From NCBI GenBank assembly GCA_900696645.1, contig CAADGV010000004.1, positions 97,140 through 161,139 of the forward strand: a stretch of DNA of 64,000 bases, written 5' to 3'. Origin of the DNA: an uncultured Chlorobiota bacterium. GTDB lineage: Bacteria; Bacteroidota; Ignavibacteria; UBA10030; UBA6906. This document shows, in pieces, positions 836 to 6,170 of this stretch (position 1 is the stretch's first letter; every line of letters begins with the position of its first letter). Made by a program: the position numbers and the translations under genes. The notes under the pieces are model-generated. The model made no database searches and was not told where the DNA came from. It saw nothing but the letters and a program-made list of their open reading frames with translations.

Positions 836-2155
836 TCAGAATGAAAGACTCGTGTCGAAATTCTCCAACCCCTTCACAATCTCTTCGAGAAACATCCCTC
901 CGAGCGCCCCATCAACGATACGATGGTCGAAGGATAGCGTGAAGAACGCCATCGAGCGAATCGCAATCATATCATCAACAACCATCACACGTTTCTTGAT
1001 GGCGCCTGTTCCGAGAATCGCCACTTGCGGCTGGCTGATGATCGGTGTGCCGATGAGTGTTCCGAACACTCCGAAGTTGGAGATTGTGAATGTGCCGCCT
1101 TGAATATCGTCGGGTGTCAGCTTCTTGTTGCGAGTGCGTGTAGCAAGATCGTTGACGGCGCGGGCAAAACCGAGAAAATTCTTCTCTTCGGCATTCTTGA
1201 TGACGGGAACGATCAGTCCGTTCTCAGCCGCAACAGCGAGGCCGAGATTGATGAAGTTCTTCTTGATAATCTTATCCCCTTCAATCGACGTGTTGACGAG
1301 AGGATACTTTTTCAATGCATTCACTACCGCCTGCACAATGTACGGAGTGTATGTGAGCTTGAAGCCTTCCTTTGTCTCAAATGAGGCCGCGTGGGCTGCA
1401 CGATGTTTCACAACCTCCGTCATATCCACTTCGTGAATGGCAGCGACATGCGGAGAGGTATGCACACTCTTGACCATGTGCTCCGCCATTTTCTGCAGAA
1501 CATTACTCATCTGAATAATGTCGTGTTGCGGAGCCGGATACTTAGCCCGCAGTTCAGGCACATCAACTGTCTTGCCTGCAATCGCCATTGACGGTGCGGT
1601 GGGCGCTGTCTTTGCAGAAGTGGGCTTCGGCGTTGTGAGCGCGCCGCTTTTTTTTGCATTAACGTAAGTAAGAATATCTTTCTTTGAGACACGTCCTCCG
1701 TCGCCCGTACCCGGGATCAACTCCAATTCCTGCATCGCAATTCCTTCTTCACGCGCAATGTTCAACACGAGCGGAGAATAAAATCTTCCCGATGCTGGCG
1801 CTGACAGGGTCTGAGCGGCTGGTGCAGCAGCAACTGCAGGCGCGGGTGTTGACGCAACAGCTTGTGGTGCAGGAGCAGCGGGCTTCGGTTCTTCCGTAAC
1901 AGCAACCGCTCCGCCTTCTGTATCAAGAAACGCAATCACCGTTCTCACCGGAACTGTGGTTTGTTCCTGGACAACGATTTCCGTAAGCGTTCCTGATGCC
2001 GGCGAGGGAATTTCGGAATCCACTTTGTCGGTGGAGATTTCCAAAATCGTCTCGTCTTTCTTCACTTTGTCGCCGACCTTCTTGTGCCATTTCACAATGG
2101 TACCTTCGGCGATGCTCTCGCCCATCTGGGGCATGACGACTTCTACACGTGCCAT
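836..2155 (-). CDS. 2-oxoacid dehydrogenase E2 acyltransferase
   Basis: Core dihydrolipoamide acyltransferase of a pyruvate/branched-chain 2-oxoacid dehydrogenase complex, 439 residues. One N-terminal lipoyl domain (about 1-78) has its lipoylated Lys at K44 in TDKVD. An Ala/Pro linker follows (about 84-123), then an E3-binding domain (about 125-165) and the catalytic domain (about 210-439) with the active-site motif DHRIVDG (H411, D415). The ATG at 2155 has AAAGGAAGT upstream. The first 13 codons and a few upstream bases are duplicated perfectly at 3207-3247, on the far side of the TIR gene. This is the only E2 in the locus, so it probably serves both E1 types. The choice between pyruvate and branched-chain substrates cannot be made from the sequence alone. 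Confidence 0.93.
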   Translation of the reverse strand: MARVEVVMPQMGESIAEGTIVKWHKKVGDKVKKDETILEISTDKVDSEIPSPASGTLTEIVVQEQTTVPVRTVIAFLDTEGGAVAVTEEPKPAAPAPQAVASTPAPAVAAAPAAQTLSAPASGRFYSPLVLNIAREEGIAMQELELIPGTGDGGRVSKKDILTYVNAKKSGALTTPKPTSAKTAPTAPSMAIAGKTVDVPELRAKYPAPQHDIIQMSNVLQKMAEHMVKSVHTSPHVAAIHEVDMTEVVKHRAAHAASFETKEGFKLTYTPYIVQAVVNALKKYPLVNTSIEGDKIIKKNFINLGLAVAAENGLIVPVIKNAEEKNFLGFARAVNDLATRTRNKKLTPDDIQGGTFTISNFGVFGTLIGTPIISQPQVAILGTGAIKKRVMVVDDMIAIRSMAFFTLSFDHRIVDGALGGMFLEEIVKGLENFDTSLSF

Positions 2156-2253: not shown

Positions 2254-3162
2254 TTAGGGTTTCTTGTCGTGGCCCGGCTCTTCTGTCGGAGAGGGATTTA
2301 GCACTTGCGCACCAACCGTAACGGTTACCGCATCAGATGCGCTTCCAGTAGTGTTGCTACAAATAATATTGTAAGTGGCGGTATGAGTTAAGTTTCCAGT
2401 GGAGAAAGATCCGGACAGGGCACGACTGCCAGTCCAACCATTCGATCCACCGTAGCTAGAACAGGAAATGGCATTGCTGGATGACCAGCGAATGGTCGTA
2501 ACTCCATTATAAGGAACATAAGCATTGTCTGCAAAGATTTTGACAGACGGCTTTACACCTTCATCTTGGATAGACATTTTGTGAATAATCCACACCACCA
2601 CGAACACAGTCATACTCGCGAGCACAATAATCGTCAACACAAGTAGAACATTCTTCCAAGAAAATTCTTTTGACTGGCCGGGCAGCAGCCCAACTTCTGG
2701 TACAACAATGCGAGGCGGCTGCTCAGTCCGGAGCGCCATCTTAATCTGGTTGCATATCTCGAAGAGCGCTTTATCCTGTTGCCATTTTTCCATGCTCTCG
2801 AGCGGATTTTGCGGATCATGTGTTGCCTGATAATCAGTTAGCTCGGTTTCATCGAACATGCAATAGGAAATCGGGACCCAAATAATTTTCAGCCCTCGAC
2901 TTTCAGCGGCTTTGAGTAATTGCGGAATCTCTTGGGCAGTGACAAACTCCGACGCAAGAAAATTCTGGCTCACGAGCATCACTGCAATATCGGCTTTGTT
3001 GAGCTCCTTTTCGATTTCCTCTTTCCATTTCGCCCCAACGTGAATCTTAGTATCATCCCACGCGGAGATGAGATTATTGCGCAGAAGCGGCTTCAGCGTC
3101 TTTTGAAGGCGCTCAAGCCATTCCTTGTCTTGATGACAATAGCTGATGAACACATTAGGCAT
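2254..3162 (-). CDS. TIR domain protein with TM helix and exported Ig-like domain
   Basis: A 302-residue protein. Residues 1-145 form a bacterial TIR domain (FISYCHQD at the start, then SQNFLASEFVTAQE). E78 sits where NADase-type TIR domains carry the catalytic Glu, so NAD+ cleavage is plausible but unproven. Residues 171-194 are a strong transmembrane helix. Residues about 205-284 form a Cys- and Ser-rich Ig/PKD-like domain (GWTGSRALSGSFSTGNLT) expected outside the membrane. A sensing ectodomain joined to a cytoplasmic TIR effector suggests signalling or defence, which is inference. The gene interrupts the E1 beta-E2 gene order and appears more AT-rich than its neighbours. Its ATG lies 24 nt after the stop of a 19-codon remnant of the E2 start, with no good Shine-Dalgarno sequence of its own. 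Confidence 0.85.
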   Translation of the reverse strand: MPNVFISYCHQDKEWLERLQKTLKPLLRNNLISAWDDTKIHVGAKWKEEIEKELNKADIAVMLVSQNFLASEFVTAQEIPQLLKAAESRGLKIIWVPISYCMFDETELTDYQATHDPQNPLESMEKWQQDKALFEICNQIKMALRTEQPPRIVVPEVGLLPGQSKEFSWKNVLLVLTIIVLASMTVFVVVWIIHKMSIQDEGVKPSVKIFADNAYVPYNGVTTIRWSSSNAISCSSYGGSNGWTGSRALSGSFSTGNLTHTATYNIICSNTTGSASDAVTVTVGAQVLNPSPTEEPGHDKKP

Positions 3163-3350: not shown

Positions 3351-4328
3351 CTAAAAATTTGCCAACTCTCTCAAAACCGTTACTACCTTCTGTGTATTCG
3401 GCAAAACAAAATCCTCCAGCGTCGGCGCAAACGGAACCGGAACATCCAACGCACCCAACCGCTTGATCGGTGCGTCGAGATATTGGAACACATTATCTGC
3501 AATCAGTGCAGCAACCTCAGCGCCGATTCCACCGGTCACGTTGTCCTCATGAACAATCAACACTTTGCCGGTCGCTTTCACGGCTGCGAAGATTGCCTCC
3601 TTGTCAAGCGGGGCGAGCGTTCGCAAATCCAATACCATCACATCAATACCATCCTCTTTGGCGAGAGTTTCGGCGGCCTCAAGTGATTGATGCACAGTAG
3701 AACCATATGTAATGATGGCAATGTCGCTGCCATTGCGTTTCACATCTGCTTTGCCAATCTCAACGATATGATCGCCTTCGGGAACTTCTCCTTTGATGCG
3801 GCGGTAGAGATACTTCGACTCCAGATAAAGCACGGGATTATTGTCCCGCACGGCCGCCTTCATCAGTCCTTTTGCATCAGCAGGAGTTGACGGCGCAACG
3901 ATTTTCAGTCCGGGGAAATGATGAAACCACGCCTCCGTGCTTGACGAATGATACGGCCCGCCGCGTATGTAACCGCCGTTCGGCAGACGAATCACCATCG
4001 GTGCAGGAAGATTCCAGCGATAGTGAATCTTCGCGCAGTTGGTGATAATTTGATTGAAGCCGCACGAGACGAAATCTGCAAATTGAATCTCAACAATCGG
4101 TCGCATGCCAACAACTGCCGCACCCGCCGCAGCGCCGATGATTGCGGCCTCCGAAAGAACGGAATCAATCACCCGTTCTTCGCCAAAATGCTTTTGAAAT
4201 CCCTTCGTTGCCTTGAACGCGCCGCCGTAGGCCCCAATGTCCTCGCCAATCAGGAAGACGGACTCGTCACGTTCCATCTCCTCCCACATGCCTCTGGAGA
4301 GGGCTTCGATGTAGGTCAGGGTTGGCAT
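3351..4328 (-). CDS. 2-oxoacid dehydrogenase E1 component, beta subunit
   Basis: Beta subunit of the thiamine-diphosphate-dependent E1 decarboxylase, 325 residues, pairing with the alpha subunit at 5071. It has the family N-terminus (TYIEALSRGMWEEM), the FLIGEDIGAYGGAFKAT segment and the C-terminal transketolase domain (VLIVHEDNVTGGIGAEVA). The frame stays open upstream to 4430, but that part overlaps the toxin gene. The ATG at 4328 is chosen because it begins the conserved domain and follows the toxin stop by one base (TGA-G-ATG). Expression may therefore be coupled to the toxin gene. In uninterrupted operons it would follow E1 alpha directly. Confidence 0.93.
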   Translation of the reverse strand: MPTLTYIEALSRGMWEEMERDESVFLIGEDIGAYGGAFKATKGFQKHFGEERVIDSVLSEAAIIGAAAGAAVVGMRPIVEIQFADFVSCGFNQIITNCAKIHYRWNLPAPMVIRLPNGGYIRGGPYHSSSTEAWFHHFPGLKIVAPSTPADAKGLMKAAVRDNNPVLYLESKYLYRRIKGEVPEGDHIVEIGKADVKRNGSDIAIITYGSTVHQSLEAAETLAKEDGIDVMVLDLRTLAPLDKEAIFAAVKATGKVLIVHEDNVTGGIGAEVAALIADNVFQYLDAPIKRLGALDVPVPFAPTLEDFVLPNTQKVVTVLRELANF

Positions 4329-4329
4329 C

Positions 4330-4656
4330 TCATTTAATGATTGCTCTGAAAATGCTTCTGAACTTGCGAAGTTCCGATTTCGATAGTCTTCCAAGTGAGG
4401 TAATAACCGTGCTTTGTCGAAGCGTTGCAATCCGATCCACCTTCACGACTGATGGGACACGAAGTCCATTCGCCCGAGTTGGCTTAAGTATGAATTCGTT
4501 CTCGGATAACCTCGTTTCGATCACTGAACTCACCGCGCATACAATCACATCGTGATAACGATCCTGTGTGAGTCCAACGACAACAGCAGGACGTACTTTC
4601 CGCACCGGCACATCCGCGAACGGAAACGGGACTATGATGATGTCACCAGTCTTCAA
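4330..4656 (-). CDS. MazF/PemK-type endoribonuclease toxin
   Basis: A 108-residue type II toxin of the CcdB/PemK fold. The N-terminus GDIIIVPFPF followed by KVRPAVVV is the family signature, and the C-terminal half matches the usual SVVKVDRIATL block. Members cleave mRNA at short motifs; the target here is unknown. The start codon is TTG, overlapping the antitoxin stop by 4 nt (TTGA), so translation is probably coupled. The gene ends one base before the E1 beta ATG. It lies inside a central metabolic operon, between the two subunits of one enzyme. Confidence 0.88.
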   Translation of the reverse strand: MKTGDIIIVPFPFADVPVRKVRPAVVVGLTQDRYHDVIVCAVSSVIETRLSENEFILKPTRANGLRVPSVVKVDRIATLRQSTVITSLGRLSKSELRKFRSIFRAIIK

Positions 4657-4865
4657 GACTTTCTTGCCAAAAGGTCCTGATAAATGTCCTCGCGTTCATC
4701 ATTCCAGAAAGAGAATGCCTCACTCTGGGATGTGAACGTCCGCATATCCTCATCGTCCTCGATTTCTTCCAAGAATGTGATGACGACTCTGTACTTCTTT
4801 TTCCCGGGAAGTTTTTCGAGTAAGCGAACGCGTTCGCCATCATAAATTCCTCTTACCGAAAGCAT
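4653..4865 (-). CDS. Antitoxin partner of the MazF-type toxin
   Basis: A 70-residue acidic protein (MLSVRGIYDGE..., ending FSFWNDEREDIYQDLLARKS) of a kind often seen just before PemK/MazF toxins. The frame is open to 4898, but the ATG at 4865 is chosen because AAAGGAGG (4871-4878 on the minus strand) lies 5 nt upstream, one of the best Shine-Dalgarno sites in the window. The N-terminal half resembles a short beta-rich DNA-binding region and the acidic C-terminus probably binds the toxin. Both statements are inference by analogy with other antitoxins. The strong initiation site against the coupled TTG of the toxin would favour an excess of antitoxin. Confidence 0.78.
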   Translation of the reverse strand: MLSVRGIYDGERVRLLEKLPGKKKYRVVITFLEEIEDDEDMRTFTSQSEAFSFWNDEREDIYQDLLARKS

Positions 4866-5070
4866 GATCGCCTCCTTTACTATATTCGATTTTGCCATTT
4901 CCTAATTATCCCCCGCATCTGGCTCTTTGTTAGCCTTCTCTCACTGCCCATTTCAACTTGACGCTCAAGATTGGGATAGCCGGATGCATGTAAGTGTCAG
5001 AATTCAGCGTCAGTATCCAATTACGAAATTTGATTCTTCTGCACTGAAAAGCAACACTCACATTGCCACA

Positions 5071-6027
5071 TCACTCCGCAAACACCCCCTCCACCGCCTG
5101 CTCTCCCGGCGGATACGGTTGCGCCACCGCATAGTCAACCGCCTCCTGAATCTCCGCAAGAATCTTCTCTTGCATTTCTTTCTTGAGTGAATCGGAGAGG
5201 ACGCTGGCTGACTTCAATTTCTTCTCATACAACTCAACGGGATCTTTCTTCCTCCATTCTTCGACCATCCCTTTCGGAACGTATGACGCGTCGTCGGAAA
5301 GCGAGTGACCGTGCATCCGCATCGTTACCGTCTCGATAAGGGTCGGGCCTTCACCCTTGCGCGCCCGTTCAACAGCTTGCTGGCACGTTGCGTACACAAG
5401 TTCGACATCTGTGCCGTCAATCGTGAAGCCGGGAATTCCGTACCCGACTGCACGGTCAGAAAGTTTCTTCGCCGCAAACTGTTTGTGATTGGGGGTGGAA
5501 TACGCAAACTGATTATTCTCGATGATCATGATGAACGGAAGTTTCATCACCGAGGCCATATTCATCCCGTCATGAAACTCGCCGAGGTTGCAGCCGCCGT
5601 CGCCGATGTAGTTGATCACAACAGCGTTTTCCTTTCGCATCTTCGACGCAAGCGCAACACCGCACGCCATCGGGATCATTGCGGCAAGGTGGCTCACGTT
5701 GCCGTAGATTCTTCTCGACGGATCGGCATAATGTCCAGTGCCGTCACGACCACGAGCAAGCCCCTCTCCTCTTCCAAGTTGCATCAGGAAGATGTTGCGT
5801 AACGTTTGTCCCTTCACAAGATGCGCCCCCAAATCACGATGCATCGGAAAGAGGTAATCCTGCTCTTCAAGCGCGAACGCGCTGCCGACCGCCGTCGCCT
5901 CGTTTCCGTATCCGGTGAACGCGCCGCCGACCATCTTCCCCTGTTTGTAGAGTTTGATGATGGCGTTGTCTACTTCGCGGGAGAGAAGAAGATAGCGGTA
6001 GAGGCGTATTCTGTTTTCAGCATTCAT
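5071..6027 (-). CDS. 2-oxoacid dehydrogenase E1 component, alpha subunit
   Basis: Alpha subunit of the split E1, about 318 residues. The thiamine-diphosphate motif GDGG (142-145) through ENN (170-172) has the usual spacing, and the phosphorylation-loop-like segment TMRMHGHSLSDD is present. The frame extends 8 codons upstream to a TTG at 6051; the ATG at 6027 fits the family start better. A gap of 205 nt then separates it from the antitoxin gene, which holds no recognisable gene and may contain the toxin-antitoxin promoter. Together with the beta subunit at 3351 it would decarboxylate pyruvate or a related 2-oxoacid and acylate E2. Confidence 0.92.
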   Translation of the reverse strand: MNAENRIRLYRYLLLSREVDNAIIKLYKQGKMVGGAFTGYGNEATAVGSAFALEEQDYLFPMHRDLGAHLVKGQTLRNIFLMQLGRGEGLARGRDGTGHYADPSRRIYGNVSHLAAMIPMACGVALASKMRKENAVVINYIGDGGCNLGEFHDGMNMASVMKLPFIMIIENNQFAYSTPNHKQFAAKKLSDRAVGYGIPGFTIDGTDVELVYATCQQAVERARKGEGPTLIETVTMRMHGHSLSDDASYVPKGMVEEWRKKDPVELYEKKLKSASVLSDSLKKEMQEKILAEIQEAVDYAVAQPYPPGEQAVEGVFAE

Positions 6028-6050
6028 TGCGAAGTAAGCTCCGAATCGCA

Positions 6051-6170
6051 ATTTCCAAGCTCCAAGGAAATTTCAAAATCAAAATTCCAAATAATCCTCC
6101 TCCCGGAAAATTGAATTTTGGCATTTGGAGCTTCTTTGGATTCTTAGAGCTTGAATATTGGAGTTTCAAA
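6051..6170. repeat. Imperfect inverted repeat in E1-E1 spacer
   Basis: The 145-nt spacer between the fused E1 and E1 alpha is AT-rich and folds on itself. AAGCTCCAA (6057-6065) pairs with TTGGAGCTT (6125-6133), and flanking segments (CAAAATTCC, GAATTTTGG) extend the pairing imperfectly. No gene is visible. It may be a small mobile-type palindrome or an mRNA hairpin that modulates E1 alpha expression. Confidence 0.5.

Follow-up and report, generated by a model that had tools for sequence, protein, structure and literature searches.

A PemK/MazF-type toxin–antitoxin pair inserted between the E1 alpha and E1 beta genes of a 2-oxoacid dehydrogenase operon

A toxin–antitoxin gene pair was found between the genes for the E1 alpha and E1 beta subunits of a 2-oxoacid dehydrogenase complex in the window, which is the whole 64,000-nt stretch of DNA analyzed here. 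By comparison with related sequences, the pair is an insertion, acquired after the operon had formed, at a point where the two subunit genes once overlapped stop to start. The explanation that fits best, to which a probability of about 75% was given, is that a type II module, consisting of an AF2212-like antitoxin and a PemK/MazF-type toxin, was acquired at this formerly overlapping junction and that related modules have accumulated at tight junctions of other operons.

The gene pair within the dehydrogenase operon

The genes of the window operon are all on the minus strand and run from dihydrolipoyl dehydrogenase through fused E1, E1 alpha, antitoxin, toxin, E1 beta and the TIR gene to E2. 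The features used in this study are as follows:

9714-8317, minus strand, dihydrolipoyl dehydrogenase
8283-6172, minus strand, fused E1
5071..6051, minus strand, E1 alpha of the 2-oxoacid dehydrogenase complex (PF00676, E=3e-84; exact start codon not settled)
5069..5073, minus strand, TGATG at the end of E1 alpha (compared with empty-site relatives)
4905..4933, minus strand, promoter-like CTAACA-17-GATAAT (from a consensus scan only, 9/12 matches)
4871..4878, minus strand, putative antitoxin ribosome-binding site AAAGGAGG (from sequence; AAGGAGG present in G011 too)
4653..4865, minus strand, antitoxin of 70 aa (from alignment with seven partner antitoxins)
4330..4656, minus strand, PemK/MazF-family toxin of 108 aa with a TTG start (PF02452, E=3e-14; MazF-like predicted structure; invariant Arg22 and Ser43/Ser44)
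3351..4328, minus strand, E1 beta of the same complex as E1 alpha (PF02779/PF02780; NCBIfam NF006667 above its cut-off)
2254..3162, minus strand, TIR-domain gene (PF13676, E=2e-15; junction comparison)
836..2155, minus strand, E2 acyltransferase of the operon (PF00198, E=3e-78)

An earlier note on this DNA had described a toxin–antitoxin pair between the two E1 genes, and the gene calls, the PF02452 match and the coordinates bear this out. Its reading of the gene boundaries was likewise confirmed: the TTG start of the toxin (4656-4330) overlaps the stop codon of the antitoxin, whose reading frame ends at 4653, and the ATG of E1 beta at 4328 is located one base past the toxin stop (TGA-G-ATG). 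The longest antitoxin reading frame starts at 4898; the true start is best placed at 4865, as suggested by AAAGGAGG and by conservation of this start among the homologues, and this position fits the 205-nt non-coding stretch (4866-5070) that the note had given. Co-direction of the genes alone carries little weight because 25 of the 28 neighboring pairs in the window are co-directional (10/28 are co-directional within 60 nt).

The TIR gene that the note had placed in the operon was also present there, between E1 beta and E2 (3162-2254). Its product has a hydrophobic, membrane-like segment and an additional C-terminal region, and its top PADLOC match is ThsB (E=2e-19). The gene occupies the same place in the genus mate G001 (71% identity) and was not found there in G002. 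The note's view of it as a second toxic module is not supported by these data.

The toxin scored 53.5 bits against PF02452 (PemK_toxin), for which the cut-off is 23.1. Its structure was predicted with five models, of which the best had a pLDDT of 88 and a pTM of 0.80 (the remaining four, pLDDT 46–56). When this model was used for a Foldseek search, the top matches were all MazF proteins (E down to 1.6e-7), and its alignment with the solved structure of MazF-mt3 (VIA-align) gave a Z-score of 15.7 and an rmsd of 1.7 across 97 residues. The profile of the toxin homologs matched solved MazF sequences (E=2e-4); neither the single toxin sequence nor the single antitoxin sequence gave a useful match among the sequences of solved structures. 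Conserved Arg and Ser/Thr positions have a catalytic role in MazF. In eight toxin homologs Arg22, Ser43 and Ser44 are unchanged, with the Arg following the first strands and the Ser/Thr in the next strand. The protein is therefore best explained as a toxin of the PemK/MazF type and a predicted mRNA endonuclease. A plasmid origin of the pair was rejected, as just three plasmid matches were obtained, all of them distant (34–38% identity).

The window antitoxin and its seven partner antitoxins combine an AF2212-like N-terminal half with a conserved C-terminal segment, FxFWxDxREDxYQDxL. Against PF01954 (AF2212-like), the window antitoxin gave no match, and the homolog in G011 was the sole one to reach the cut-off (21.9 against 21.6). 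No match of the window antitoxin to MazE, PemI or AbrB was found with Pfam (up to E=5) or with NCBIfam, the 8-row antitoxin profile had no relevant match among PDB sequences, and the structure model was of too low quality for a fold comparison (pLDDT 61, pTM 0.26). The antitoxin and toxin are kept as a unit in eight genomes (the window and seven others), at differing loci; their pairing is not due to chance, given this joint conservation and the shared junction in G011. Moreover, a second type of antitoxin with a different N-terminus retains the same C-terminal segment beside related toxins, so this segment may be where the toxin is bound. The antitoxin would probably bind and silence the toxin through it, and if the antitoxin were lost, the toxin would probably cut RNA.

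The pair resembles the PemIK, MazEF and Kis-Kid type II systems in its PF02452 toxin, MazF fold, antitoxin-then-toxin order, overlapping genes and conserved Arg and Ser/Thr residues. It differs from them in its antitoxin, which Pfam does not assign to the MazE, PemI or AbrB families and which is AF2212-like with the FxFWxDxREDxYQDxL C-terminus. Makarova and colleagues (PMC2701414) described AF2212-type proteins as antitoxins beside PIN-domain toxins, mostly in thermophiles. The window antitoxin resembles this family (AF2212-like/COG2880, DUF104) in its N-terminal half, and its homolog in G011 reaches the PF01954 cut-off, whereas the partner in the window is PemK/MazF.

Insertion at the E1 alpha/E1 beta junction

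The earlier note had proposed an insertion rather than a gene order universal in the phylum, and the operon comparison with relatives agrees with this, as the E1 genes abut in most of them. Throughout the order, E1 alpha and E1 beta lie within a few tens of bases of each other at most loci. In nearly all empty-site members of the family, the two genes overlap stop to start as TGATG or TAATG, and an SD-like sequence is present within the E1 alpha tail. G000 and G011 were the sole genomes among the 21 of the family to have a close toxin homolog, and the empty junction is the common state. G011 belongs to another genus and was independently assembled, and it carries the same pair at the same junction (JACQVJ010000153.1). 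A wider profile search of the phylum gave just two genomes at the strict threshold. The TGATG at 5069..5073 is possibly a remnant of the ancestral overlap, although it is partly expected by chance, TGA being the stop codon here. No convincing target duplication or terminal inverted repeats were found at the insertion.

In the genus mates, the point between E1 alpha and E1 beta is occupied by other genes, which encode a RAMA/DUF4357-like protein and a response regulator in G001 and an HNH nuclease and a small protein of 74 aa in G002. In G028 (L065:5482-6926) the junction contains a pair of genes for a DUF4258 and a YgiT-finger protein, together with one whose product matches PDC-S18, a candidate defense protein in PADLOC (E=4e-106), and in G023 it contains a gene for an uncharacterized 217-aa protein. 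Inserts of at least 500 nt were seen at 6 of the 34 loci within the order, and the roughly 50 loci outside it had none (Fisher p=0.003); the loci were counted by hand over related, non-independent genomes, and the p-value takes no account of relatedness. Gene calls in the survey of gene contexts were simple. In G001, the RAMA/DUF4357-like protein has a weak SeqA-N-like start, and the insert (L058:5504-6613) is preceded by TTGACA-17-TATACT and the palindrome TTAGCGCTAA.

The insertion also bears on how the pair and E1 beta may be expressed. The pair would probably be expressed from its own promoter together with read-through from the dehydrogenase operon. CTAACA-17-GATAAT, at 4933-4905, is only suggestive as the antitoxin promoter because the consensus scan of the region upstream of the antitoxin gave 3 sites against 2.1 expected by chance. 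No SD-like site was found in the bases ahead of the E1 beta start, and such sites precede 10 of the 33 long ATG-started reading frames of the window, a count that includes spurious ones. The ancestral SD-like site stays in the E1 alpha tail, now apart from E1 beta. With the insertion, E1 beta was parted from the ribosome-binding site that it had ancestrally, and its translation may now depend on the toxin stop, with reinitiation there as a plausible route.

Related modules at other operon junctions

Recurrence of such modules was observed at other operons of related genomes. The gapA/pgk junction of G289 and the sufC/sufD junction of G186 hold close homologs of the pair, and in G028 one lies upstream of an RNase R gene. 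More distant PemK toxins (25–36% identity) separate trpB from trpA (G027), guaB from guaA (G028) and an M29-family peptidase gene from prfB (G023), and in G002 and G056 such a toxin precedes hemB; trpB was called from sequence and position, Pfam yielding the general PALP family only. In relatives the corresponding junctions are empty. Most of the nearest relatives have 104–183 nt between gapA and pgk, the closest has 14 nt between sufC and sufD, and a genus mate has 20 nt between trpB and trpA; between guaB and guaA the lengths are 14 and 163 nt. Some relatives have different inserts at gapA/pgk and sufC/sufD. At the sufC/sufD loci L236 and L237, in sister genomes, the inserts are small genes for a protein of 126 aa and for two proteins of 59 aa.

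From these junctions, in a survey confined to PemK modules and to the genomes of relatives, the module is best read as belonging to a type that has inserted at tight operon junctions time and again. Insertions that spare both neighboring reading frames and downstream expression would survive selection, and related modules would therefore accumulate at the tight junctions of expressed operons.

Insertion of a toxin–antitoxin module in a metabolic operon has already been published. In Thermus thermophilus HB8 a HEPN-MNT module lies within the lysine biosynthesis operon, and HB27 is without it (Makarova and colleagues, PMC2701414). That case is alike in its metabolic operon and in the empty site of a close relative, and it differs in its toxin and antitoxin families. 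The genes that the window insertion parts encode two subunits of a single enzyme and overlap in relatives, and similar insertions are found again at other core operons. The newer part is accordingly the recurrence at junctions of near-zero length, even between subunits; a search of the open-access literature, with most subscription papers outside its reach, gave no earlier account of PemK recurrence at core operons.

Competing explanations and the question of addiction

The E1 junction could be open to small accessory or defense genes in general, with the pair as one passenger and nothing specific to its family. This has a little less than an even chance of being correct. The differing inserts in G001, G002, G028 and G023, the large inserts confined to the order (relatedness ignored) and the other inserts at sufC/sufD all agree with it, but alone it gives no account of PemK pairs recurring at several core junctions. 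It overlaps with the preferred explanation, acquisition at a formerly overlapping junction, and the two are not mutually exclusive. It is very unlikely that the pair was present in the operon of a common ancestor and was then lost repeatedly. G000 and G011 do share it at the same place, and the tree of operon proteins did not reject a clade of the window genus with G011 (AU p=0.36), so descent within this small clade is neither shown nor rejected. Against an older origin, however, most other relatives have a short or overlapping empty junction, the outgroup phyla carry no insert of this size, and repeated exact loss restoring TGATG or TAATG is improbable; as the ancestral order of the phylum, the arrangement was rejected given these empty junctions. 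An assembly artefact joining unrelated sequence is scarcely credible, even in a draft genome of 46 contigs, as the independent assembly has the same arrangement, the contig is 161 kb long, and every reading frame and junction is intact.

The earlier note had seen in the arrangement an unusually strong form of addiction, since loss of the segment could upset both an essential enzyme and the antitoxin. As a rival explanation, this would mean that the pair is kept for that reason and that selection acts on its operon position itself. Deletion could affect translation of E1 beta, which starts one base past the toxin stop without its ancestral SD-like site, and several related modules are located in core operons. 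Genus mates nevertheless live without the pair and have other genes in its place, the site is empty in most relatives, and as just two family genomes have the pair, its absence seems to be tolerated. Moreover, pyruvate:ferredoxin oxidoreductase is present in the genome in intact form (TIGR02176, 1914.7 bits against 911.35), so that essentiality of the dehydrogenase is not supported. Such a device is therefore unlikely, and the claim is not supported as it was worded; one part of it has indirect support in the separation of E1 beta from its ribosome-binding site. Pairs placed between closely linked metabolic genes in related bacteria look like a recurring habit of such modules, which does not amount to proof of a special addiction mechanism. 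The broader idea that PemK/MazF modules of Ignavibacteria-related lineages prefer core-operon junctions of near-zero length, where the downstream subunit is coupled to the toxin and the operon shields the module from deletion, is doubtful.

Chromosomal toxin–antitoxin modules are often regarded as mobile or island-borne, and here they recur at tight junctions of central operons. The empty sites in relatives provide natural before-and-after pairs, which bear on whether operon position stabilizes such modules and on how insertion between overlapping genes is tolerated. Two PemK copies in G028 (L054 and L056) contain an internal stop codon, which suggests that some of these modules are decaying.
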